DNA of 28,176 nucleotides, from IMG/VR virus record IMGVR_UViG_3300031521_000298, positions 1 through 28,176 of that record, one strand, 5' to 3'. The number at the start of each line of letters is the position of its first letter. Positions within the stretch are counted from its first letter, which is position 1. The notes beneath the pieces are model-generated. The model ran no database searches. It was not told where the DNA came from and saw nothing but the letters and a program-made list of their open reading frames with translations. Source of the stretch: a virus. A program made the position numbers and the translations under genes. This document shows positions 6,718 through 18,359 of this stretch, piece after piece.

Positions 6718-7077
6718 CTAAGGTACACAAATAAATAATGTATAGTTAAATGTAGTTGATGGAACCGCGTCTCCAGCGGACGAAGCTCTTGCAACTATAT
6801 ATATATTTGTTGAATCATGTCTACAGAAGAATGAATATCTCCCGTCTGGAGTTGAGTATGGTGCATATAGGTATCGACCATTATTTGACCATAGTGCTGT
6901 GCATACCGGTATAACGCTGTCGTTTCCTAACCCGTGGGCTATCGTAGCAACTGCCTCACCACCTGTTCCCGGAGCTTGGTATGGGGATGTAAGTGTTCCG
7001 GTTATAGGTTCGCTGACTACTTTTAACGTAGAGCGAGCTGACGTAAACTGTACTCCATCATTATCATTAAGTGCCAT
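6718..7077 (-). CDS. Small appendage protein, third of a tandem family
   Basis: The 119-residue product is probably all beta, with no signal peptide. The core pattern is a beta-rich stretch (AVATIAHGLGNDSVIPV), a middle NNGRYLYAP turn, then STNIYIVARAS and a final TFNYTLFICVP strand. The STNIYI segment matches the neighbour at 7067-7420, so the genes look like diverged copies. It overlaps that neighbour by 11 bases. It lies at the end of the tail-gene block, consistent with a tail-tip or fibre component; this role is inferred. The N-terminus lacks the FYSGF motif of the other two copies. Confidence 0.6.
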   Translation of the reverse strand: MALNDNDGVQFTSARSTLKVVSEPITGTLTSPYQAPGTGGEAVATIAHGLGNDSVIPVCTALWSNNGRYLYAPYSTPDGRYSFFCRHDSTNIYIVARASSAGDAVPSTTFNYTLFICVP

Positions 7078-7420
7078 TTGCTGCCCTATCTTGTATTATT
7101 AAGTGAACCTTAAATACTTCCGAGAAACTTGGACCGTTGTTGTTGAATCCATCGACGTATATATTTGTGCTATTGAACCCAACAGCTATTCCGTCACCGA
7201 CTGATTGAGCATGGAGCTTTCCGTCATACTCTATGTAGTATCTTACTACCGGGGGCCTTGATACTACTTCTGCCGGTATGGTTATTACCGTTCCATCTAC
7301 TGTCTGCGAACCGAATCCTGAGTTATGGGACGTAACCGTTATGGTTGCGCCAACCTGTCGCAAGTATGAGAATCCGGAGTAAAAGGCAATCCTGTTGTAC
7401 TTTGTTCTATCTATTCCCAT
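7067..7420 (-). CDS. Small appendage protein, second of a tandem family
   Basis: The 117-residue protein begins MGIDRTKYNRIAFYSGFSY, which aligns with MALDTTKLNQIQFYSGFRY of the next gene (7422-7736). Its centre (RYYIEYDGKLHAQ) and STNIYVDGF segment align with the third copy (6718-7077). It is beta-rich with no membrane segment. A TAATATG junction separates it from the upstream gene. Probably a small structural or fibre-associated protein that arose by duplication; the function is not recognised. Confidence 0.62.
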   Translation of the reverse strand: MGIDRTKYNRIAFYSGFSYLRQVGATITVTSHNSGFGSQTVDGTVITIPAEVVSRPPVVRYYIEYDGKLHAQSVGDGIAVGFNSTNIYVDGFNNNGPSFSEVFKVHLIIQDRAANGT

Positions 7421-7421
7421 A

Positions 7422-7736
7422 TTAACTCACAATCGGTAGGTTATATATCCAGTATCGTATATGTAAGGATGAACCAGATATTTGCGTTAAGTATAAACCA
7501 GTAGCAGTTACGGAGGCTATCGCGGCCTCTCCTATTGGTAGCCACTGACCACCATACAAGAACTGTACATCAAACTGTGGCGCTGTACCAAATGGGGTAG
7601 TAAATGACGCTACTAGTTGTGCTGTCGGCCATGTGGACGTAAGCGTAACATCTATCTCGTCTTGTTTCAGCACCTGTGCATATCTGAATCCAGAATAGAA
7701 CTGTATTTGGTTTAATTTAGTAGTATCAAGTGCCAT
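7422..7736 (-). CDS. Small appendage protein, first of a tandem family
   Basis: This 104-residue beta-rich protein carries the TKLNQIQFYSGFRY N-terminal signature shared with the following gene. It also has a FLYGGQWLPIGE turn in the position of the YDGKLHAQ and NNGRYLYAP turns of its relatives. Its ATG shares a base with the stop of the gene at 7736-7954 (TAATG). It is probably a structural tail component by context. No catalytic motif is visible. Confidence 0.62.
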   Translation of the reverse strand: MALDTTKLNQIQFYSGFRYAQVLKQDEIDVTLTSTWPTAQLVASFTTPFGTAPQFDVQFLYGGQWLPIGEAAIASVTATGLYLTQISGSSLHIRYWIYNLPIVS

Positions 7737-7955: not shown

Positions 7956-8465
7956 TTATACCTTCTGTATAACCATCCAGTAGGCGGTATAGTTTACATA
8001 CTCATCTGGTCCAACATTCCAAGCCATTGTCGCAAGAGTTGTTGTATCTTTCCAATATGGTTTCATTATGAATTGGATACCCGTCGTGTGAGTACAACCC
8101 ATCCAAAATGTAGCTGCCTGATTTACTCCAATAGGCATAACCTGTGGGCCGATTTCATACCTGTAGGTATTGGAGCCTAATCTTCCGGAAGCAGTAGAAT
8201 CAACTACCTGTGATTTTACAAAATACTTATAATTTCCGAGAGAGTAATAACTCCATCCATTATCATCTACCCCAGACTGGAGGGACAGTTTAGCGCTAGT
8301 TACGGCACCATCCTGGATTTTAGCCGTAGTAACTGCGCCATTTGCAAGGTTCGTACTATCTAGTTTACCATTCATCTCATCGGTAACTATACCGAATCTT
8401 GCGTTTATATCATTAGCTGAGGCTAGTGAGTTCGCTGCTATATTTGCTATACTTATTTGGCCCAT
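7956..8465 (-). CDS. Tail fibre/spike-like protein
   Basis: The 169-residue product starts with a helical segment. Two short fibre-shaft repeats of the NGAVTTAKIQDGAVTSAKL type follow at about residues 42-60, a pattern common in phage and bacterial fibre stalks. The remaining 100 residues are Tyr/Trp-rich and beta, ending YWMVIQKV, like a small fibre head domain. It follows the nozzle gene by 9 bases, so it is a candidate receptor-binding fibre attached to the tail. The role is inferred from the repeats and position. Confidence 0.65.
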   Translation of the reverse strand: MGQISIANIAANSLASANDINARFGIVTDEMNGKLDSTNLANGAVTTAKIQDGAVTSAKLSLQSGVDDNGWSYYSLGNYKYFVKSQVVDSTASGRLGSNTYRYEIGPQVMPIGVNQAATFWMGCTHTTGIQFIMKPYWKDTTTLATMAWNVGPDEYVNYTAYWMVIQKV

Positions 8466-8474
8466 ATAAGCCTC

Positions 8475-10883
8475 CTATACTTTCTTAATTCTATATTTAT
8501 ACTCAGAACCCATGAACGCTACTCGGTTATTGACGCCCTTACGCTTAACCCTTAACTGCCAGTAGTAAGCATTTCCACCGAATGACATACGGTACATCTT
8601 GAAGGTTGTATCTCCACCGTATCTCGTACCATCATCCCAGTAGAAATTATCCCACGTAGCGCCATTTGTCAGCAGTAGTAGTTTCTTAAATAGTGGCGCG
8701 TCTTGGAAGTCTTTATCCATACCGACATCTATCTTAAATGTACTCTCTACTCCCTGGAACAGCGGGAAGTATCTTTTGATACGTTTCTTCTGCGCTGGAT
8801 ATCCATTGCTTTCATACTTTAGGTCGTATTCAAAGTCTATTGGAGCACCGAGGGAGTGGGCGTTTTGTTCTGCTTTATATAGAGCTGGAACATAAGAGCT
8901 TACCTCTATTAACTCACCGTTATCATTTGCATCGTTATAGTAGATTGCTCGACTGACTCCGGTGCGAGTATCATACATCCAGTCACCAGTCTCCTTATCA
9001 TATATCAAACATGAATCATTTACCGATGAACCAGATGATGCCATATAGAACCTTACTTGGTTCTTCCAGACTACTGGAGTAATCATGTACTTGTTGGCAC
9101 AAGCATCGAATAACGGGTCCACTGGTCCTGATATCTTTTTATCAGACGAACCGTTAAACTCGTAGTTTCCATTATCGCTAACAAAGAATACTGAGTTGTT
9201 ATCAACTACTAGTCCGCGCTGGCTTATGCAGCCCTTATGTCCAGTAGCCTGTCTTTCGCTAAATGTACCCCTATCATATCCAGAGATAACGTAGTGATTA
9301 TCTTGTGTCCATACGTGTAGGCTATCCTGGAAGGACGCCATTCTAGTAACCGGTGAACCGTTAAATGGCCTCGGTGTATATATGAACGATAGGCTTAACC
9401 AAGCGTGGTACCACTGTAGGGTAGATGCCACATTGCTAGGATTGCCAGGAGCTTCACAGAATACCAACTTATTATTATCCGCTGCTGTCTTACCCCAGAT
9501 TCGGTCTTTGTGCATTAGAATCTCCGATAGGATTGGTAACTCAGGGTCTATGATATACTCAATACCAGTATCAACAAGTGATACATCATCGAGTAAGAAG
9601 TTTACCGCTGTAGACTGAATATCAAACGAAGTTGAGTCTGCTGTAGCTGTGTAGTAGAATGAGTATTGCGCCCATGCTGCCGTTATCGCAGTAACTGTCG
9701 CTGCCACTGGGGTCGTGTTGAAACAGAACTGGATATTGCCGGATGCTGATGCACCCTTAGCCCAGAAGGAAATCTTATATCTATGGTTAAGAAGCATACC
9801 TGCCGTAGCATATCTAGCTGAACGAGTACCACTTGTAGCAGTAATATTCAATGATGCCGGAGTAGTATGAAAATCAGATGTGTACCTTGCTATTGCGTTT
9901 CCGGTTCCGCCCCCAGTGGCCGCCCAACCTGTAGTATCGGTAGTAAATCCACCGTTAGTTACTATATTGGTGTTCGTTGCTTCGTATGTGCCGTTCCACG
10001 CAGTCATTAAATCATACCCATTCACCCAGAATACTTTGCCGTCACCATCGGTAAAGCTGTACTCCGTAGCGCTGGAAGATAGTCCCGTGATTAATGGAGT
10101 GAGTACGTGATTCGTCTCGTCTATGGTATACATTGTGGTACCATATGGAGCCATCGTGACGTTTACGCCATTTTCTTTATTAAACCTATATTGTCCCTTA
10201 TCATGCGAAACGGGGGTTATATACGTTTTATAATTCACGGCGTAAGATTGCTGTACTATTTGCGTAAGAGTCGAGTCTGTCTTGTAGGCATGAGGTGTAG
10301 CTGTAGCAGTAGATAGTGTATATGTATCTGTGTCGGCACCATCATCTTGTATGATAGTACCTACCCAAAAAGACACTCCCGATGTGGCAATGTATGGGGT
10401 GATAAATTGTGCAGAACAGTATGTCGCCGTACCGGATACGTCTTCCGAGACTATAGAACTCTCAGCGAGTACGTTACCAACAATACCAGTATTATTCTGA
10501 TATACAGTGACCATCAGCGGTACTTTTCCGCCACCAACGTCGCTCATCTTAATATCTATCTTAGTTAGAGCACCAGACGCACCTGGAGTTACTAGCCATA
10601 AATGCTGGCCGGCCAGAGTCCCAACGCTAGCTGTAGCAGCACCAGTAGTAGATACATTCTGCGTATCGAGCGTCTCTCCTAGTGGTGAAACGTATTCTCC
10701 CGGACCGAACCGACTGCTAACAGCAACCTTACGGTCATTCTCTTGTTTAGCGTACAACCGGAAGTCATGTGCTGATGGTGTGCTGCCCTCTTGCATCATA
10801 TCAGGAGGGTTCACCAAATCAAGCCCTCTAAGGACTAGATTCTTTCCGATTGCATCTGCTGTTTTTAATCCTATTGATGCCAT
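8475..10883 (-). CDS. Tail nozzle/tail-hub protein with inserted carbohydrate-binding-like domains
   Basis: This 802-residue protein follows the connector gene by two bases, the arrangement of T7 gp11-gp12. Residues 1-70 and about 225-300 and 450-802 look like the all-beta nozzle scaffold (for example HDKGQYRFNKENG, FSDNGNYEFNG-type turns and the KKRIKRYFPLFQG region). Two extra modules appear inserted. Residues about 80-222 resemble a jelly-roll 'choice-of-anchor' domain. Residues about 305-437 have the layout of a CBM_4_9 domain, running from NIVTNGGFTTDTTGW through YKISFWAKG to FLLDDVSLVD. The protein probably forms the distal short tail, and the insertions could bind surface glycans. Nozzle assignment is by size, order and fold pattern; domain assignments are from memory. 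Confidence 0.75.
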   Translation of the reverse strand: MASIGLKTADAIGKNLVLRGLDLVNPPDMMQEGSTPSAHDFRLYAKQENDRKVAVSSRFGPGEYVSPLGETLDTQNVSTTGAATASVGTLAGQHLWLVTPGASGALTKIDIKMSDVGGGKVPLMVTVYQNNTGIVGNVLAESSIVSEDVSGTATYCSAQFITPYIATSGVSFWVGTIIQDDGADTDTYTLSTATATPHAYKTDSTLTQIVQQSYAVNYKTYITPVSHDKGQYRFNKENGVNVTMAPYGTTMYTIDETNHVLTPLITGLSSSATEYSFTDGDGKVFWVNGYDLMTAWNGTYEATNTNIVTNGGFTTDTTGWAATGGGTGNAIARYTSDFHTTPASLNITATSGTRSARYATAGMLLNHRYKISFWAKGASASGNIQFCFNTTPVAATVTAITAAWAQYSFYYTATADSTSFDIQSTAVNFLLDDVSLVDTGIEYIIDPELPILSEILMHKDRIWGKTAADNNKLVFCEAPGNPSNVASTLQWYHAWLSLSFIYTPRPFNGSPVTRMASFQDSLHVWTQDNHYVISGYDRGTFSERQATGHKGCISQRGLVVDNNSVFFVSDNGNYEFNGSSDKKISGPVDPLFDACANKYMITPVVWKNQVRFYMASSGSSVNDSCLIYDKETGDWMYDTRTGVSRAIYYNDANDNGELIEVSSYVPALYKAEQNAHSLGAPIDFEYDLKYESNGYPAQKKRIKRYFPLFQGVESTFKIDVGMDKDFQDAPLFKKLLLLTNGATWDNFYWDDGTRYGGDTTFKMYRMSFGGNAYYWQLRVKRKGVNNRVAFMGSEYKYRIKKV

Positions 10884-10885
10884 AA

Positions 10886-11527
10886 TTACCGCCTATTGCT
10901 AGTGAAAGCATTATCTACGTACATTGGGCCGATTATCGAACGCTCGCCGTACTTCTCGATAACATCAAATAGTTGTTCTGTAAATCTAGCTCGTGTACCC
11001 TGTGCTTCGGCTAGGTCGCCATCACGTTCTTGTACTCGTGCATATGCGCCAAGTAGTAATACTTCTGCGAATTCCTGTGGAGTTGCCGGTACTGATGTAC
11101 CTTCTGTGAGCGTTGGAGCTTTCTTTATATAAAACATATTCATTGTGTAGGCCTTATCTGTTGGCCGTGAGAATATGATGTTATCACCAAATAGTGTCCA
11201 CGCTACTGGTTCCCCGGCAGTATCTGTATCTGCATCAGGGAACTTAGCGAAGAAGTCTCTCCACTCCATTTTCATTCTATGGAATCCAGGGACTCCAGTA
11301 ATAGAACAATGTTCAAGGTTTGCTAGGTCAGCAGGTAGCTGGAACATATTAGAGTTGACTGGTACATCACCCTTAAATATCTTCTCCTGAAAACTAAGCC
11401 GTAATTTATTAAAAACTTCACTATGGGCATCATTGATGAAATTATCAACAACAGTAGTATCATAGTCTGGGTCGTCCAGTTTGTCTGTTAGGATGCGGTT
11501 CCTAAGTCCAGCTAAAGTAAAATCCAT
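10886..11527 (-). CDS. Head-tail connector (tail tubular protein A/gp11-like adaptor)
   Basis: The 213-residue product begins TLAGLRNRILTDKLDD, followed by a helical FINDAHSEVFNKLR segment. It then has a beta-domain with LPADLANLEHC, WTLFGDNIIFSRP and MFYIKKAP, and ends in helices that include EVLLLGAYARVQERDGD. This order is typical of podoviral adaptor proteins that dock under the portal and accept the nozzle. It lies immediately before the nozzle gene. It has about the length usual for T7 gp11-like adaptors. Confidence 0.8.
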   Translation of the reverse strand: MDFTLAGLRNRILTDKLDDPDYDTTVVDNFINDAHSEVFNKLRLSFQEKIFKGDVPVNSNMFQLPADLANLEHCSITGVPGFHRMKMEWRDFFAKFPDADTDTAGEPVAWTLFGDNIIFSRPTDKAYTMNMFYIKKAPTLTEGTSVPATPQEFAEVLLLGAYARVQERDGDLAEAQGTRARFTEQLFDVIEKYGERSIIGPMYVDNAFTSNRR

Positions 11528-11545: not shown

Positions 11546-13174
11546 TTATAGTTTTCCGTTATCAGGTGATGATTGCTTGTATATACCGCTTTCGTCTGCT
11601 TGTACAGATTCGAGAGTATCATTGCTAGCACCAGTTTGTTTGTATATTCCAGAGCCATCAATATCGGCAGTATTGATTGTCCCATTCTCCTCAGAATCTT
11701 GTTTATAGATTCCACTGGAGATAGTCTTGTTAAATACCCTTATTCTTCCAAAAACGTCAGAGGTCGTTTGCAGAACTACGAACAGTTTACCTATAAGTGG
11801 TCTATCTACCGTCTTTTTAATTCGGAGGGTGCCATTTATCGACTTAACAGAGAGGGCATGAACACGTAGCTTACCGGTCTGGTCTGCTGTCGATATCTTA
11901 CCGATTCTGAGTAAACCGGAGATAGTCTGTGTGACTACCTTACTGACCCGTAACTTACCTAGTTGGCTGAGGTCAAGAACCTTCTTGATTCTCAATTTAC
12001 CAGTTTGGTCGTATAGGTGAGTACCTATCATCCTGATTTTACCAGTTATGGTATTATCAAGTGTTTTCGATACCCGTAAGAGTCCTAGCTGGTCTTTAGT
12101 GTTTAATCTATAGACGAACAGTTTTCCTACTTGGTCTGCATCGAGTGTCTTAGATACTCGCAGTTTACCCTGTATTGACCTAATTGGCTCTGAGGATATG
12201 TATACCTTACCAGTAGTTGTCTTGTCAGTAGTCTGTTTAACGCGTACCGTACCGAGCTGTGTCCTTGACGTTATCTGACCAACTCTTAACTTGCCTGTCT
12301 GAGTAGTGTCGAGGATTCCCTTGATTCTCACGACACCGGTAACAGTTTTATCTAGTATACCCTTGACGCGGAGTTTACCCGTCTGGGTTCTATCATAAGT
12401 AATCTTAACTCGTAACCTACCCGTCTGGGTAGTATCGAGAGTCTTCTCAACCCTTAACTTTCCGGCCTGGTCTTTTGTACTAGTAAGATTAACGAACAAT
12501 TTACCAGTTTGGGTTACATCAGTAGTCGTACTAACGGCATTAACTGCTTCACCAAATCCGGTTGCACCAAGCCCAGTAATACCACCGTAACCTGCCGACA
12601 TACCAGATGGAGCTGTAGTTGGAACGGATGTTCCGTATATATTCACCTTGCCAGTTTGCGCCTTATCTGTGACAGAATAGGCGTTACCGGTAATTACATA
12701 CGCTATATCATTAACGGTATCTGCTGTAAATCCTCCTAAATAGTAGGCTGAGTTCCTGGTACTATCAGAAGACCCGTTCTTCGTACCAGCACCGACAGAG
12801 TTGTTGGTATCGCCACCAGAGTATGATAGTGATAACATATAGTTGCCAGGCGCTAGGTCTAATCCACTAAAGTTTAGAGTTATCGGTGTGGCATTTGATG
12901 TCGGAGGAAATGTCGGAAGAGTAGCAGCGTTACCAGCAGATGAGGTAGCTAATACCGTATTCGGTATTGCGGTAGAACCCGGCGTACCAGTTATACTAGA
13001 TATTTTATAATAATAGTTACCGGTAGGAGAGCCAAACTTTGTCAGATACATAGTAGCTGAGGTAACTGTATACGTAGAAGACGTTACGGCGAATGTCTCT
13101 GCTATGTCAAATATGCCATACGCTTGCCATGTAACATTTATGTTTGAACTTGCGTATGTGTCAATCGTCGCCAT
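11546..13174 (-). CDS. Fibre-like protein with 19 exact 14-residue beta repeats
   Basis: The 542-residue protein has three parts. Residues 1-165 form a jelly-roll-like domain of the 'choice-of-anchor' kind (TSATMYLTKFGSPTGNYYY, then DLAPGNYMLSLSYSGG). Residues about 218-483 contain 19 tandem units with a glycine at every 14th position (G224 to G476 without a break) and a consensus near TQTGKLRVxKxLDx. Residues 487-534 contain three SGIYKQ units at 21-residue spacing. There is no signal peptide or catalytic motif. An AAAGGGGG ribosome site precedes the ATG. It sits between fibre genes and the connector gene, so a long repetitive shaft or whisker is likely. A virion surface role is inferred. 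Confidence 0.75.
   Translation of the reverse strand: MATIDTYASSNINVTWQAYGIFDIAETFAVTSSTYTVTSATMYLTKFGSPTGNYYYKISSITGTPGSTAIPNTVLATSSAGNAATLPTFPPTSNATPITLNFSGLDLAPGNYMLSLSYSGGDTNNSVGAGTKNGSSDSTRNSAYYLGGFTADTVNDIAYVITGNAYSVTDKAQTGKVNIYGTSVPTTAPSGMSAGYGGITGLGATGFGEAVNAVSTTTDVTQTGKLFVNLTSTKDQAGKLRVEKTLDTTQTGRLRVKITYDRTQTGKLRVKGILDKTVTGVVRIKGILDTTQTGKLRVGQITSRTQLGTVRVKQTTDKTTTGKVYISSEPIRSIQGKLRVSKTLDADQVGKLFVYRLNTKDQLGLLRVSKTLDNTITGKIRMIGTHLYDQTGKLRIKKVLDLSQLGKLRVSKVVTQTISGLLRIGKISTADQTGKLRVHALSVKSINGTLRIKKTVDRPLIGKLFVVLQTTSDVFGRIRVFNKTISSGIYKQDSEENGTINTADIDGSGIYKQTGASNDTLESVQADESGIYKQSSPDNGKL
11573..11716 (-). repeat. Three SGIYKQ repeats, 21-residue period (coding)
   Basis: The C-terminus of the 542-residue protein repeats SGIYKQ at residues 487, 508 and 529, with 15 variable, Asp/Glu/Ser/Thr-rich residues between. 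The spacing is exactly 21 residues (63 bases). This is a different repeat system from the 14-residue array just upstream in the protein. Confidence 0.85.
11726..12523 (-). repeat. Array of 19 coding repeats, 42-base (14-residue) period
   Basis: Within the 542-residue protein a glycine occurs at 224, 238, 252 and every 14 residues to 476. It is usually followed by K/L-L-R/F-V/I and preceded by Gln or Thr. The protein pattern is strict in spacing. The DNA is diverged between units, so the array is old and selected for structure rather than a recent slippage product. Confidence 0.9.
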
Positions 13175-13200: not shown

Positions 13201-13689
13201 TTAGGATATTTTTGTTGCTATAATACTTGCGCCAGCAGCTATTGTAATAGATGGTGTTGTGCCAGCAGCAGTAGCCTGTAACTGTAACGTACCAGCATTT
13301 GCACCATTTACGATTGTTCCCTCTATAGTATGATGTGTATTTGCAACGGCGGTGCTAGCACCCATCGTAGTAAACGAAGTAATAACTGATGTAGTTATTG
13401 CTGATGCAGAGGTCATTTGAGTCCTGCGTAGACTTACTAGTGTAGGAGAAGCTGGGCCAGTGAACCCTAAGTTTAGTGTGGGAGATGTTCCTGACACTGC
13501 GCTGATTGGGATGTTTAGTTCTATCCTATAAGTCGTCGAGGCCGCCAAAGATACTGCTAAATCAGTTACATTGCCAGCAGCTCCTGTAATTGCCTGAGCA
13601 GATGTTTTATTAGCTACTGTCACCCTTGGGTCATTACGGGTAGCAGGGGATGGGTCAAGCTCGTTATTTGTAATTTTAGTTTCTGCCAT
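13201..13689 (-). CDS. Beta-sandwich structural protein, fibre head or decoration candidate
   Basis: The 162-residue product is rich in Ala, Thr and Ser. After about 35 residues of linker it has a jelly-roll-like pattern: LAASTTYRIELNIP, LNLGFTGP, HHTIEGTIVNGANAGTLQLQA and SITIAAGASIIATKI. Such domains are common at the ends of phage fibres. It begins after a TAATATG junction with the 117-residue gene and is followed by the repeat-fibre gene. A fibre or accessory virion role is inferred. Confidence 0.6.
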   Translation of the reverse strand: MAETKITNNELDPSPATRNDPRVTVANKTSAQAITGAAGNVTDLAVSLAASTTYRIELNIPISAVSGTSPTLNLGFTGPASPTLVSLRRTQMTSASAITTSVITSFTTMGASTAVANTHHTIEGTIVNGANAGTLQLQATAAGTTPSITIAAGASIIATKIS

Positions 13690-13690
13690 A

Positions 13691-14044
13691 TTATATTCCT
13701 ATTGCTATCCACGATACATACTGTGTTGTTATAGCAGTACCAGAGTCATTGATGAATGATACCGATGCTGCCGACGCGGTTGTGCTATTCACTCGTAAAA
13801 ATCCGTTAGCACTTATGTTTCCCATCTGATTACCTACTAATATGGGGGGATTTGTAAATGTCTCTGGAAATGTAATAGTGAATGGGTCGGCAGTTATCTG
13901 TACCCTACCTACCTGTATTTTTACTGGAGAGGAAGATACGTCGTAGCTGGTTGTCCCTGCGGCGCTCCAGTCCGTAGCACTAGAACCTTGACGCTTCTTA
14001 ACGATTCCGTTTAATAATTGTGATGAATTTATTTTTTGTGCCAT
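13691..14044 (-). CDS. Small tail-fibre-type protein with lectin-like C-terminal domain
   Basis: The 117-residue product starts with a MAQKINSSQLLNGIVKKRQG linker, then VGRVQ, ITFPETFTNPPILVG and a final VSWIAIGI. The F-P-x-x-F-x-x-P-P and terminal W-I-A-I-G pattern is familiar from C-terminal receptor-binding modules of phage fibres (H-lectin or gp53-like), recalled from memory. It sits between two other fibre-type genes with TAATATG before it. It may be a separately encoded fibre tip. Confidence 0.6.
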   Translation of the reverse strand: MAQKINSSQLLNGIVKKRQGSSATDWSAAGTTSYDVSSSPVKIQVGRVQITADPFTITFPETFTNPPILVGNQMGNISANGFLRVNSTTASAASVSFINDSGTAITTQYVSWIAIGI

Positions 14045-14045
14045 A

Positions 14046-15341
14046 TTATGCCTTGCTCACCAGGAAGCCATTAAAGAATGTGTTAGCAGCGCCAGCAACG
14101 ATGTCGCGTGTACCCGTTGTCTGAATGATTACCTCTATATAGTCTCCAGCAGTTAGTTGTATCAGGCTATGTATCTGTGGTTTAAGCAATCTATACGCGT
14201 CGCCAGAACCATTCATCCACATGCTCTCTGGCATACCAGTCCCTGAGCTGTTCTTATATAATCTAATCACGCAGTTTTCAGTAGGACCAGTACCAGCAGG
14301 GCCCCACCATACTTGGGCATTTACTTGGTAGTATCCAGAAACAGGAGCAGTATAACGGCTTGAAGCGAAGTTACTGTTTGGGTCGAATAACTCAGTCTGA
14401 AAATCAACAGCAACAGAAGTCGTGTTCGCCGCCTTGCCAGTGCTACAGTATGCACTAAACATATATGGGTTAGTTATAACAGATGCGTCCATCCTTGCGT
14501 TCGCGTCCAGTGGGAGTATTTGGTTTGCCGTAGCTGTCGCGCTAGCATGGTAGCTGTCTACTGTATCTGCGTTGCCGCTAACAGATAGAACATATTGATA
14601 TCCTACCTCTACGTTATCGCCAGTAAGAGGGGCCGTATCTAATGCAAATGTACCGGTTGTCGGAGAAGTCTCAGTGACGTTAGCAATACCTTGCCTTAGT
14701 CCGTTGATGTATAGCTGTAGGCTACCGGCAATATAAGAACCTTTTGATACTGAGAATGATGTGTTTGAGCCATTTACTGTACCGACAGCGGCTTCTTTAG
14801 TGATTAGGCTATTAGAGCCAGTAATCATTAACTGTGAGCCAAGTATATAGTTAGCAAGAAGAACTGCTCCCGTTGCCGGTGCAGTTGTGAATGTTATTGT
14901 TTGTCCAGACGTAGTATAGTCATTACCAGCTCCACCACGTAAACGTACACCGTTCTTAAATACTTCTATCAAAGTAAATGCGCTAGCTGTAGTGAAGGCA
15001 GTTAGTACACCGTTTGGGGTACCAGTAAGAACCTCACCCATTGTCATGGATGAAGTCAAAAGGTCATCAGTATAGATACTGTTTACTGCAATCCAGCCAC
15101 TCACCACCGTTTTAGATGTAGTGTCACCTTGTGCTCGTGTACACTCGAACACCTCAGCGCTAGTCTTAGATGTAACCAAAACCTTTTCTGAGTTTCCAAG
15201 TGTGGTAAGTTGTCCGGGTGGGGACAAAGTGAGGTAGAATGGTGGTGTAGGCATTGTCTGCCCATAACCAGTCTGGAAAGTAAGAGTAGTACCAGAAAGG
15301 CTAGATACCACGCCTGTTGCAAAGTCTTTTTTATTTGCCAT
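14046..15341 (-). CDS. Tail fibre protein with two repeat modules and a C1q-like tip
   Basis: This 431-residue protein has an N-terminal domain (1-95). Two related modules follow at about 106-168 and 187-250; both begin with G-T-x-N-G and continue with an F-K-N-G or Y-I-N-G hairpin and a GxxxxxxY end. A short linker (255-290) leads to a C-terminal C1q/TNF-like jelly roll (about 293-430) with FQTELFDPNSNF, YTAPVSGYYQVNAQVWW, IRLYKNSSG, LTAGDYIEV and FNGFLVSKA. C1q-like tips trimerise and bind receptors in known systems. It overlaps the upstream gene by 11 bases. It is probably a trimeric receptor-binding fibre. Confidence 0.75.
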   Translation of the reverse strand: MANKKDFATGVVSSLSGTTLTFQTGYGQTMPTPPFYLTLSPPGQLTTLGNSEKVLVTSKTSAEVFECTRAQGDTTSKTVVSGWIAVNSIYTDDLLTSSMTMGEVLTGTPNGVLTAFTTASAFTLIEVFKNGVRLRGGAGNDYTTSGQTITFTTAPATGAVLLANYILGSQLMITGSNSLITKEAAVGTVNGSNTSFSVSKGSYIAGSLQLYINGLRQGIANVTETSPTTGTFALDTAPLTGDNVEVGYQYVLSVSGNADTVDSYHASATATANQILPLDANARMDASVITNPYMFSAYCSTGKAANTTSVAVDFQTELFDPNSNFASSRYTAPVSGYYQVNAQVWWGPAGTGPTENCVIRLYKNSSGTGMPESMWMNGSGDAYRLLKPQIHSLIQLTAGDYIEVIIQTTGTRDIVAGAANTFFNGFLVSKA

Positions 15342-15765
15342 CTAGTGTTATTATCCTCTTTACGGTTTTACCCTTATTATTTTTGTATTCGTATCCGAAG
15401 TTGTATGATACTACTCGTGGCTCTTGCCAAACGCCGTCGATGTTATCCCTGTCCATGTTCCTGAAATAAATCAGTTTACGTGGGGACTCGGCATCATCAA
15501 GTCGGAATGTCTTGCTATCTATTGAGAACTCTCCAGTACTAAGGTCCACACTATATATCCCATTCATTTTTGTCTGGTCTAATAGGTGAAAGAACTTAAT
15601 TGGTGATTTCTCTTCGTAATCAAGTATATCTCGGAAGGCTGATGGGTTCCATTCAGCAGTATCATCATGCTTGCTATATCTGTCATCCTCTGATTGGTCT
15701 ATAATGTGACCATCTTCAAAGTAGACAGACCATAGCATCGTAAGCGGTTTTGTTGTTGTACTCAT
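15331..15765 (-). CDS. Uncharacterised phage protein in the structural block
   Basis: The 144-residue product is acidic and soluble. It has LWSVYFEDGHIIDQSEDD near the start, a Ser/Asp-rich middle, and an internal beta-repeat-like stretch (GIYSVDLSTGEFSIDSKTFRL). I recall similar 'WxVxFxDGxxI-Q-x-DDRY' proteins near capsid genes of other phages but cannot name a role. The ribosome site is weak (AGAGAG). It overlaps the fibre gene by 11 bases and is co-transcribed with it. Confidence 0.6.
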   Translation of the reverse strand: MSTTTKPLTMLWSVYFEDGHIIDQSEDDRYSKHDDTAEWNPSAFRDILDYEEKSPIKFFHLLDQTKMNGIYSVDLSTGEFSIDSKTFRLDDAESPRKLIYFRNMDRDNIDGVWQEPRVVSYNFGYEYKNNKGKTVKRIITLDGK

Positions 15766-15792: not shown

Positions 15793-16317
15793 TTAATTCT
15801 CAGAATAGCGTAAAGTTAAGGTCATCGTAGCTGAATCGCCAGTTGATGCAGAACCAGTAGTACGAGCCTGTGTAACCAAGTATTGTGTGTATCCTGCTGC
15901 TGCAAGTGTAGCTGTAGGTGTTGCACCTTCTGGACCAGTTGTATGGAACAGAACTGTCGCACCTGATGCAATAGCTGTAACTGCTGAAATATCACTCAAT
16001 CCTGCTGTTGCTGATTGTGATGGGGTAGCGTAGGTAGAAGTAACTGCTCCGTAGAGAGTCAAGCCCGTACCAAACGTACCTGCCGTGTGCGCCCATAGGC
16101 CAGCGCTAATCTGGTTGAAAGTGCCAGTAAACTTACCGAATTGATACTTTGGGAAACTGTTATCACCAGCGTTTACTGATGCGGCTGTGTATGCCGTAGC
16201 GACATCATCTACTGATTTCCAGTTGACCTGAGTGACGGCAGTATTGCGGGTAGTACCCTTAGCCGGAGAACCGGTTGCAGCACCGTTGTCTTCATTGAAC
16301 TCAAAAGTTGCGGCCAT
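15793..16317 (-). CDS. Probable capsid decoration or minor head protein
   Basis: The 174-residue protein is rich in Ala, Thr, Gly and Ser and predicted all-beta, with no signal peptide. It begins MAATFEFNEDNGAATGSPAKG and includes KYQFGKFTGTFNQISAGLW and a closing ATMTLTLRYSEN strand. It lies just after the capsid/glycosyltransferase genes, a usual place for decoration or head-fibre proteins, and its many Ser/Thr residues would suit glycosylation by the neighbouring enzyme. The assignment rests on composition and context only. Confidence 0.5.
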   Translation of the reverse strand: MAATFEFNEDNGAATGSPAKGTTRNTAVTQVNWKSVDDVATAYTAASVNAGDNSFPKYQFGKFTGTFNQISAGLWAHTAGTFGTGLTLYGAVTSTYATPSQSATAGLSDISAVTAIASGATVLFHTTGPEGATPTATLAAAGYTQYLVTQARTTGSASTGDSATMTLTLRYSEN

Positions 16318-16327
16318 TTAATTATCC

Positions 16328-17374
16328 TTATCTTATTATCTTAACGTATTTTTCTTTTACTAACATATCTGTTCTAGGGGAGTCCTTTACGAACATAAAG
16401 TCACCCTCCCTAAGTGTCTGTTTTTCTTCCATATAGGTAGTCATACCGCGAAGGTTCTGTACGAGTAGCATATCATTACGATATTTGCTCTTCTCTTTTT
16501 TGCCTAGAATACTTTTGTAATTGTCATCAGGCGGTGTATACTCTATAGTATCATCTTTCCTGCTGATTATGGCATCTACGTATGTGTCATAATTTGTTTC
16601 TTCTAGGTCAATAATAACCCCGTACTTGTCTGTTACGCCGAGTTCTTTTAGGACTGGTATATCAGTAGCTATAACCTTTGTGCCGAGCGATAGAGCTTCT
16701 ACTACTGAGTAACAGTAGCTTTCTGTATCACTTAGCTGTACCAGATAGTCTGCTGTCTTTATGTCTCCAGCTATATCTAGCTTTGGTTTTCTAAAGGTAA
16801 CATTTGGGCTATCAATCTCTCCGGGCTGATTAGTGAATATATCCCACTGGTAAGACACTCCCTTATTATCAAGAACTCTCGCTAGCTCTCTCATTCTTTC
16901 AAGACCCTTTTCTATCGTAAGCCTTGTAGCGCTCACTAACTTAATGGGTTTTTCGGTATCAGTAATATCTACTGGGTTATATAAAAGCTCGCACTTCATT
17001 CCAAATTTCTTAGTAAAACTGGAACAGGCTAGTTTACTAACTCCAAATATTCTGTTTATCTTATTCGGAATAGTTGGTCGTAGGTTTATCTTATCGTAGT
17101 CTGCATGAACTATATGTAGGTACTCGTTGGCTTCTGTGGTTTCTATGCCCATAAAATCATAACAATATATGGCCTTATCACACTTAACCGTTTGTCCGTT
17201 GTATTTTATACACTTGACGTACTTGCTTAATCTTGAGATTTGCCGTACATCAGCATCATCATAGTATACTTGTATATCGTAGTCATCGTGATACTTCTTA
17301 GCTATATAGTATAACCAAGACTCTATCCCGCCGACAGTAAATATCTGGCTTCTGAATATAGTTATCATTATCAA
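16328..17374 (-). CDS. GT4-type glycosyltransferase fused to a small C-terminal module
   Basis: The 348-residue protein has the GT-B, family-4 layout. There is an N-terminal FTVGGIESWLYYIAKKY loop (12-28), VSK and LLYNPVD near the domain hinge, and SATRLTIEKG (148-157) with R151 and K156 in the phosphate-binding positions. An EX7E motif (E218-E226) is followed by EALSLGTKVIATDIP. It should move a sugar from a nucleotide donor; the acceptor is unknown. Residues about 304-348 (VQNLRG to YVKII) look like a separate small beta module with GDFMFVKDSPRTDMLV. The gene has a TAGGAGT ribosome site and sits between the capsid terminator and decoration-type genes, suggesting that a virion protein is the acceptor. 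Confidence 0.85.
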   Translation of the reverse strand: MIMITIFRSQIFTVGGIESWLYYIAKKYHDDYDIQVYYDDADVRQISRLSKYVKCIKYNGQTVKCDKAIYCYDFMGIETTEANEYLHIVHADYDKINLRPTIPNKINRIFGVSKLACSSFTKKFGMKCELLYNPVDITDTEKPIKLVSATRLTIEKGLERMRELARVLDNKGVSYQWDIFTNQPGEIDSPNVTFRKPKLDIAGDIKTADYLVQLSDTESYCYSVVEALSLGTKVIATDIPVLKELGVTDKYGVIIDLEETNYDTYVDAIISRKDDTIEYTPPDDNYKSILGKKEKSKYRNDMLLVQNLRGMTTYMEEKQTLREGDFMFVKDSPRTDMLVKEKYVKIIR

Positions 17375-17447: not shown

Positions 17448-18359
17448 CTAGATAGAGCTGGCGTTGGCCGTTCGCTTGATGAGAACACCGTGGTCAGGTC
17501 GCAAAACCTTAACACCGAATAGTTCACCTGCGATTAGGTCATCTTGGCCCTTGAGAGCGTCACGGTAGAACTCAACCTTTGGTACGTCTTGCGTTGCACC
17601 TATGATTGCGCTCTTGTGGAACATCAAGAACTGGTACTTGCTAGAAGCTACAGTAACTGCGTTGGTAACGTATACCGGCATATTGTAGATTTCTCCAACA
17701 AATCCGTTAGAACCCTTGACAAGTCCTGATTCACCAGTCTCTTTGTAAGCGGTAAATTCTGGAATCTTGCGTAGGTCACCACGACCCTGGCTGTTGACTA
17801 CTAGGTAGCGGTCGCCTTCTGGGACGTTAGCCTTATCAAGCTGGGTAGCTGCATCAACGATGTCTGCAAATGTCAGTACACCGGCGGTACCTGATGCTGT
17901 GATTGCGGTGTTAACCGTAAAGCCAGCAACAGCTTTTCGCATAACTTCCTCGTCCTTAGCGCGGTCCAAGAACCGAGCGAGAACACCCTCTTGTGTAGAA
18001 CGAAGTGCATATGCGCTTTGTGCTTTGAGGGCATCTTGAACACCAATACCATGTCGGATGTAGCGGTCAATTAAGAGGTCAGTTTGTGAGATATCAAGAG
18101 CTGTGATTGTTGCATCACTTCCAACTGTAAAGTTGGCAGTTGTAGCGTCATCAATTTCAGCGGCGAAGTCAATATGGAGTGTATCACCCATAGCAGAAAT
18201 TTCGCTGTCGAAACGTCCGTCGATAAGAGGCCACATAACCAAGTTATTAACACGCTCTGATTCAAGCTCTTTTGCCCATAGTTCCGGGACTAAGAGTTTT
18301 GAATGTGCAGCATCATCTACTGCTCCGGTGCCAACGGTTGGCTGAATGTAATTTGGCAT
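17448..18359 (-). CDS. Major capsid protein (HK97 fold)
   Basis: The 303-residue product has the order of an HK97-fold coat protein. The N-arm contains PELWAKELESERVNNLVMWPLID, a beta/E-loop region with GDTLHIDF follows, then a spine helix region (ALRSTQEGVLARFLDRAKDEEV). The P and A domains include FADIVDAATQLDKANVPEGDRYLVVNS and NMPVYVTNAV. The end is FGVKVLRPDHGVLIK. The RPDHGV ending is common in this coat family. It follows the scaffold gene and precedes a strong terminator, the usual arrangement for the most abundant virion protein. The ribosome site is AGGAA about ten bases upstream of the ATG. Confidence 0.88.
   Translation of the reverse strand: MPNYIQPTVGTGAVDDAAHSKLLVPELWAKELESERVNNLVMWPLIDGRFDSEISAMGDTLHIDFAAEIDDATTANFTVGSDATITALDISQTDLLIDRYIRHGIGVQDALKAQSAYALRSTQEGVLARFLDRAKDEEVMRKAVAGFTVNTAITASGTAGVLTFADIVDAATQLDKANVPEGDRYLVVNSQGRGDLRKIPEFTAYKETGESGLVKGSNGFVGEIYNMPVYVTNAVTVASSKYQFLMFHKSAIIGATQDVPKVEFYRDALKGQDDLIAGELFGVKVLRPDHGVLIKRTANASSI

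Follow-up and report, generated by a model that had tools for sequence, protein, structure and literature searches.

The window, which is the whole 28,176-base virus record IMGVR_UViG_3300031521_000298, encodes a 542-residue protein, here called REP, in which nineteen 14-residue units follow one another without a gap and whose gene lies in the head module downstream of two small conserved genes, M174 and P144. On balance, we favour reading REP as a virion appendage (a head or neck fibre) of a podovirus-like phage, with an oligomeric beta-repeat shaft and with M174 and P144 as anchor or assembly partners; we infer its presence in virions, its attachment to the head or neck, its oligomeric state and its binding.

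Architecture of the repeat protein

REP had no match in Pfam (up to E 1), PHROGs or NCBIfam, and neither the protein nor a profile of its repeat matched the sequence of any solved chain in the PDB. Along the minus strand, it divides into the following parts:

11546–13174, minus strand: REP, 542 aa, an open reading frame with no Pfam, PHROGs or NCBIfam match
12659–13174, minus strand: N-terminal non-repeat domain, aa 1–172, similar to that of the L073 REP; beta-sandwich-like by inspection only
12617–12658, minus strand: isolated 20th repeat unit, aa 173–186, with Gly 175; seen in the sequence and also in the L073 and L075 proteins
12512–12616, minus strand: Gly/aromatic linker, aa 187–221, seen in the sequence; an analogous linker occurs in L073 and L075
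11714–12511, minus strand: nineteen 14-aa units, aa 222–487, defined by glycine register, family spacing and codon analysis
11549–11713, minus strand: C-terminal tail with three GIYK motifs, aa 488–542, seen in the sequence

Glycine stands at residues 224, 238 and so on to 476, giving 19 consecutive glycines at a spacing of 14, as in the original prediction, compared with a longest run of 6 among 2,000 shuffles of the protein. With glycine taken as the third residue of the unit, the array occupies 11714–12511; the interval first reported, 11726–12523, has the same length of 798 bases and is offset by four residues. Self-identity is 0.35 at a lag of 14 residues and 0.39 at a lag of 28, against 0.04–0.10 at other lags up to 39. 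The consensus unit is (Q/I)-T-G-K-L-R-V-x-x-T-L-D-x-T, with glycine in 19 of 19 units, arginine at position 6 in 15 of 19 and valine, isoleucine or methionine at position 7 in all 19. The array is basic (53 Lys and Arg, 17 Asp and Glu).

The DNA beneath this regularity has diverged, as originally claimed: mean pairwise identity between units is 42% and Tandem Repeats Finder reported nothing for the DNA of the array. Where two units carry the same residue, they share the codon in 36.7% of cases versus 34.0% expected from codon usage, so synonymous sites between units are saturated. Adjacent units are as alike as distant ones (0.357 versus 0.358), which together with the saturation indicates that the pattern is old and has been kept by selection on the amino acids, and is not the product of recent duplication. 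The same observations bear on the alternative of a Thr-rich linker of low complexity, made by slippage and with no defined fold. The arrays contain 22% Thr against a background of 6%, and disordered chains also yield low pLDDT values such as that reported below for the array. However, with no tandem repeat left in the DNA, synonymous sites saturated, proline rare (0.8%) and the spacing and the hydrophobic residue at position 7 both retained in phages that are very diverged, we regard such a linker as very improbable.

Three features had been overlooked in the original prediction: the isolated 20th unit (aa 173–186), the Gly/aromatic linker and the three GIYK motifs, which lie at aa 488, 509 and 530 with a spacing of 21 residues. 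The overall plan of isolated unit, linker and array is common to the syntenic proteins of loci L073 and L075, where the isolated unit likewise precedes the linker. With the syntenic REP of L073, the relationship extends to the N-terminal domain (phmmer E 2e-12).

Gene neighbourhood in the window

The gene order of the window is TerL, portal, scaffold-like gene, major capsid protein (MCP), glycosyltransferase, M174, P144, three variable genes, REP, SU10-type adaptor and nozzle, and it is broadly matched in L073, L075, L103 and L105. REP had not been placed in the original prediction; its context is the head module and not a tail-tip module. The neighbouring genes are:

17448–18359, minus strand: MCP (phrog_267, E 3e-41)
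16328–17374, minus strand: glycosyltransferase within the head module (PF00534, phrog_2170)
15793–16317, minus strand: M174, conserved cassette partner gene (67 loci; AlphaFold2 pLDDT 94.3; weak pilin-like fold matches only)
15331–15765, minus strand: P144, the other conserved partner gene (a cluster of homologues covers 66 of the 67 M174 loci)
14046–15341, minus strand: 431-aa protein whose C-terminus gave a sub-threshold C1q-like match (Pfam E 9e-4, short of the curated cut-off; homologues in 9 loci)
13691–14044, minus strand: 117-aa protein with a gp53-like tail-fibre C-terminal domain (Pfam PF21882)
13201–13689, minus strand: 162-aa Thr/Ala-rich protein with no Pfam or PHROGs match
10886–11527, minus strand: head-tail adaptor directly downstream of REP (PF24175 SU10_adaptor, E 8e-18)
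8475–10883, minus strand: probable tail nozzle or virion protein (phrog_511; order kept in L073, L075, L103 and L105)

Downstream of the nozzle there is a tail-fibre match at 7956–8465. This fibre-like gene is followed at 6718–7736 by three adjoining small open reading frames (104, 117 and 119 aa), all of which have homologues in L073. The glycosyltransferase lies directly upstream of M174, and sugar enzymes also occur near the cassette in some other loci, for example L113. With threonine at 22% of array residues, the shaft could conceivably be glycosylated.

Recurrence of the cassette in viral contigs

Direct searches of phages and viral contigs with the whole of REP gave no match. Low-complexity masking in tblastn may hide repeat arrays, which weakens this null result for REP and leaves those for M174 and P144 unaffected; for this reason the two partner genes served as probes in their own right. 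None of M174, P144 and REP matched any of 50,697 phage records. The MCP of the window, used as a positive control, matched 56 of them, indicating that the collection does hold related capsids. The cassette was not found in the isolate-rich phage collection searched, nor in the Pfam, PHROGs and NCBIfam libraries.

Using a degenerate DNA pattern of three units, we identified 19 viral loci, many with long arrays, in which the units are of the (I/Q)TGKARI type. M174 was the neighbour common to these loci, with 51–60% identity to window positions 15793–16317 in the ten that were aligned. A search of viral contigs with an M174 alignment then gave 67 loci, of which 53 carry arrays of 5–49 14-residue units downstream of M174, the alignment having been seeded from repeat-bearing loci. 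Among those outside the 53, L075 has a diverged 14-residue array in the syntenic reading frame, L131 has 4.1 kb downstream of M174 with no array, and the other array-less loci end within about 3.3 kb. Homologues of P144 were present in 66 of the 67, and the window itself has M174 and P144 adjacent upstream and the 14-residue array downstream. The original prediction had tentatively likened the units to QTGxxR-type repeats of other phage proteins, and these arrays show that such repeats are real. It had also described a register without a single slip, which holds for REP in the window but not for the family: spacing is exactly 14 in 1,598 of 1,657 short junctions (96%), and slips to 12, 15, 16 or 17 account for 3.6%.

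A link of this repeat to CPR or Patescibacteria proteins, suggested alongside the phage repeats, was not borne out, as the repeat profile was positive in none of 380 sampled Patescibacteria genomes. A distant M174–P144 pair was found in two Patescibacteria genomes (L142 and L143), with a different large protein in the slot after P144; in L142 this protein has strand repeats of 14–17 residues and ends in Amidase_2, a cell-wall enzyme. Both loci are prophage-like regions on long Patescibacteria contigs. Separately, short matches to the repeat profile occurred in two Bacteroidota genomes (L145 and L146), and matches to the degenerate pattern in genome contigs were mostly due to chance, with 1 of 51 loci (L039) recognized as a long array by the repeat profile.

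Across loci, the commonest matches are to major head, portal and protease families for genes upstream of M174 and to connector families (head-tail adaptor and Neck1) for those downstream of REP. The resulting order of MCP or portal, M174, P144, variable domains, repeat protein and head-tail connectors recurs in siphoviruses and podoviruses, and the upstream capsid matches span at least six Pfam families (Phage_capsid, Phage_capsid_2, Phage_capsid_4, Phage_cap_E, Mu gpT and P22 coat). Exceptions to the order are L094, L111 and L136, in which an MCP-like gene follows REP. L083 runs through portal, protease/MCP, M174, P144, REP, adaptor, Neck1, tail terminator, tail protein and tape measure, an order that puts the REP slot within the head module and at a distance from the genes of the tail tip.

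The ends of the repeat proteins vary among loci, from a Gly_rich_2 domain or a LamG lectin domain between two arrays to almost nothing, and many relatives have just ~30 residues before the array and 20–80 after it. In L010 (10067–12580), the LamG-type lectin domain sits between two 14-residue repeat blocks of a single protein. In L098 (12635–14031; L005 is the same contig), two repeat-protein reading frames overlap in different frames, possibly through a frameshift or a sequencing error. Among the short N-termini, a YFGxxYFG signature occurred in only 4 of 59.

Structure prediction

An AlphaFold2 monomer model of the array, built from 26 in-register aligned rows, was all beta with about two strands per unit (positions 5–11 and 14–2) at a pLDDT of 51. 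The confidence of this model is poor. Within the unit, covariation at i,i+2 (positions 6–8, 9–11, 11–13, 4–6 and 8–10; z 10–37) supports one extended strand per unit. Between neighbouring units, covariation could not tell parallel packing from antiparallel, and scores at control lags were similar. Taken with the saturated synonymous sites and the family-wide spacing, the i,i+2 covariation and the all-beta low-confidence model uphold the claim of strong selection on a regular strand-type repeat.

The array might instead be a self-contained monomeric beta-solenoid or beta-roll, with approximately one coil per 14 residues and two short strands per coil, and this would be compatible with either a head or a tail location. 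The strand positions of the low-confidence model point in this direction, as do the left-handed beta-rolls of trimeric adhesins, which have 14-residue layers and a conserved glycine (PMC9543794). However, pLDDT reached only 51 despite 26 in-register rows, a PDB fold search with that model returned nothing usable (beta-helix matches at a probability of at most 0.08), and no profile match to solved chains or Pfam was found, so that we consider a monomeric coil possible, if doubtful. The low pLDDT would fit an obligate oligomer, and would equally fit a misfit model or an unusual fold.

For M174, the AlphaFold2 model was confident (pLDDT 94.3). A fold search with it gave no confident structural homologue, the weak pilin-like matches having a best E of 0.04 and TM below 0.5; a capsid-binding role for M174 is putative.

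A proposed virion appendage

In the favoured reading, an oligomeric fibre on the head or neck, the 14-residue units would make up a stiff, strongly basic shaft of beta repeats that is most likely obligately oligomeric and links a variable N-terminal adhesion-type domain to the short C-terminal repeat tail. M174 and P144 would be the conserved partners that anchor or assemble REP on the head or portal region. Each unit would have to stack on its neighbours, which would keep the register while leaving surface positions, unit number and end domains free to vary, and the function may be to make the first contact with cells or glycans or to hold the phage close to them. Given the short ends of many relatives, a shaft-plus-tip plan is not universal.

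REP is encoded in the head module near the MCP and connectors, in the window between the MCP and the SU10-type adaptor. Gene order is no proof of location, and podovirus tail appendages can be encoded near the adaptor as well. REP could instead be a podovirus tail fibre, with the repeat as its shaft, that attaches to the adaptor or nozzle encoded immediately downstream: its gene is followed by those of the SU10-type adaptor and the nozzle-like protein, and the 117-aa neighbour carries a tail-fibre C-terminal domain. We think this unlikely, because siphovirus-type loci such as L083 place REP between the capsid genes and the connectors rather than beyond the tape measure, where the tail-tip genes lie, and because the window has other fibre-like genes downstream of the nozzle (7956–8465).

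A broader and tentative proposal, which we hold well below that of the head or neck fibre, is that M174, P144 and the 14-residue-repeat protein form a head-appendage cassette transferable across unrelated capsids, with a basic, Thr-rich beta shaft of a fold unseen in solved structures that is perhaps glycosylated in some phages by a transferase of the same module. 

One putative appendage design, marked by two small conserved genes, recurs in uncultivated phages whose capsids are of podovirus, siphovirus and other lineages. Confirmation would supply both name and function for a frequent but unannotated block of environmental phage genomes, for which M174 is an easy marker, and would bring a very regular 14-residue beta-repeat shaft into the set of viral fibre folds already known.

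Relation to known fibres and repeat folds

The phage head fibres known so far are trimeric, sit on the head and are thought to interact with hosts (PMC9710869, PMC7602432). The head fibres phi29 gp8.5 and Andhra gp13 and the T4 decoration adhesin Hoc resemble the proposed REP as head appendages encoded among virion genes and thought to aid contact with the host or a surface (PMC7602432, PMC9710869). In contrast, the phi29 and Andhra fibres use helical coiled coils, Andhra also having a beta-prism base, whereas REP has a 14-residue beta-type repeat, and searches of Pfam, PHROGs, NCBIfam and the PDB linked its sequence to no described family of head fibres or decoration proteins.

Among viral shafts, the adenovirus fibre is a triple beta-spiral with a period of 15. 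It shares with the proposed REP shaft short beta repeats, a conserved turn residue and a trimeric viral shaft, but the period of REP is 14, as it is in 96% of family junctions, and no match to solved chains was found. The ITKSLKY-type repeats of the prophage-like region L142 in Patescibacteria are like REP in their slot after M174–P144, tandem units and alternating strand pattern, and unlike it in their spacing of 14–17, lack of a conserved glycine and terminal amidase domain.

The closest formal parallel is the left-handed parallel beta-roll head of trimeric autotransporter adhesins such as YadA and BpaC, which is built of 14-residue layers with conserved glycine (PMC9543794) and, like REP, keeps one invariant glycine in register. 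REP differs in having no profile match to these heads (Pfam up to E 1; PDB), in lacking the second conserved glycine of BpaC-like heads and in its phage context. Phage virion appendages as such are already known; what appears to be new here is an undescribed 14-residue beta-repeat shaft carried in a recurrent cassette.
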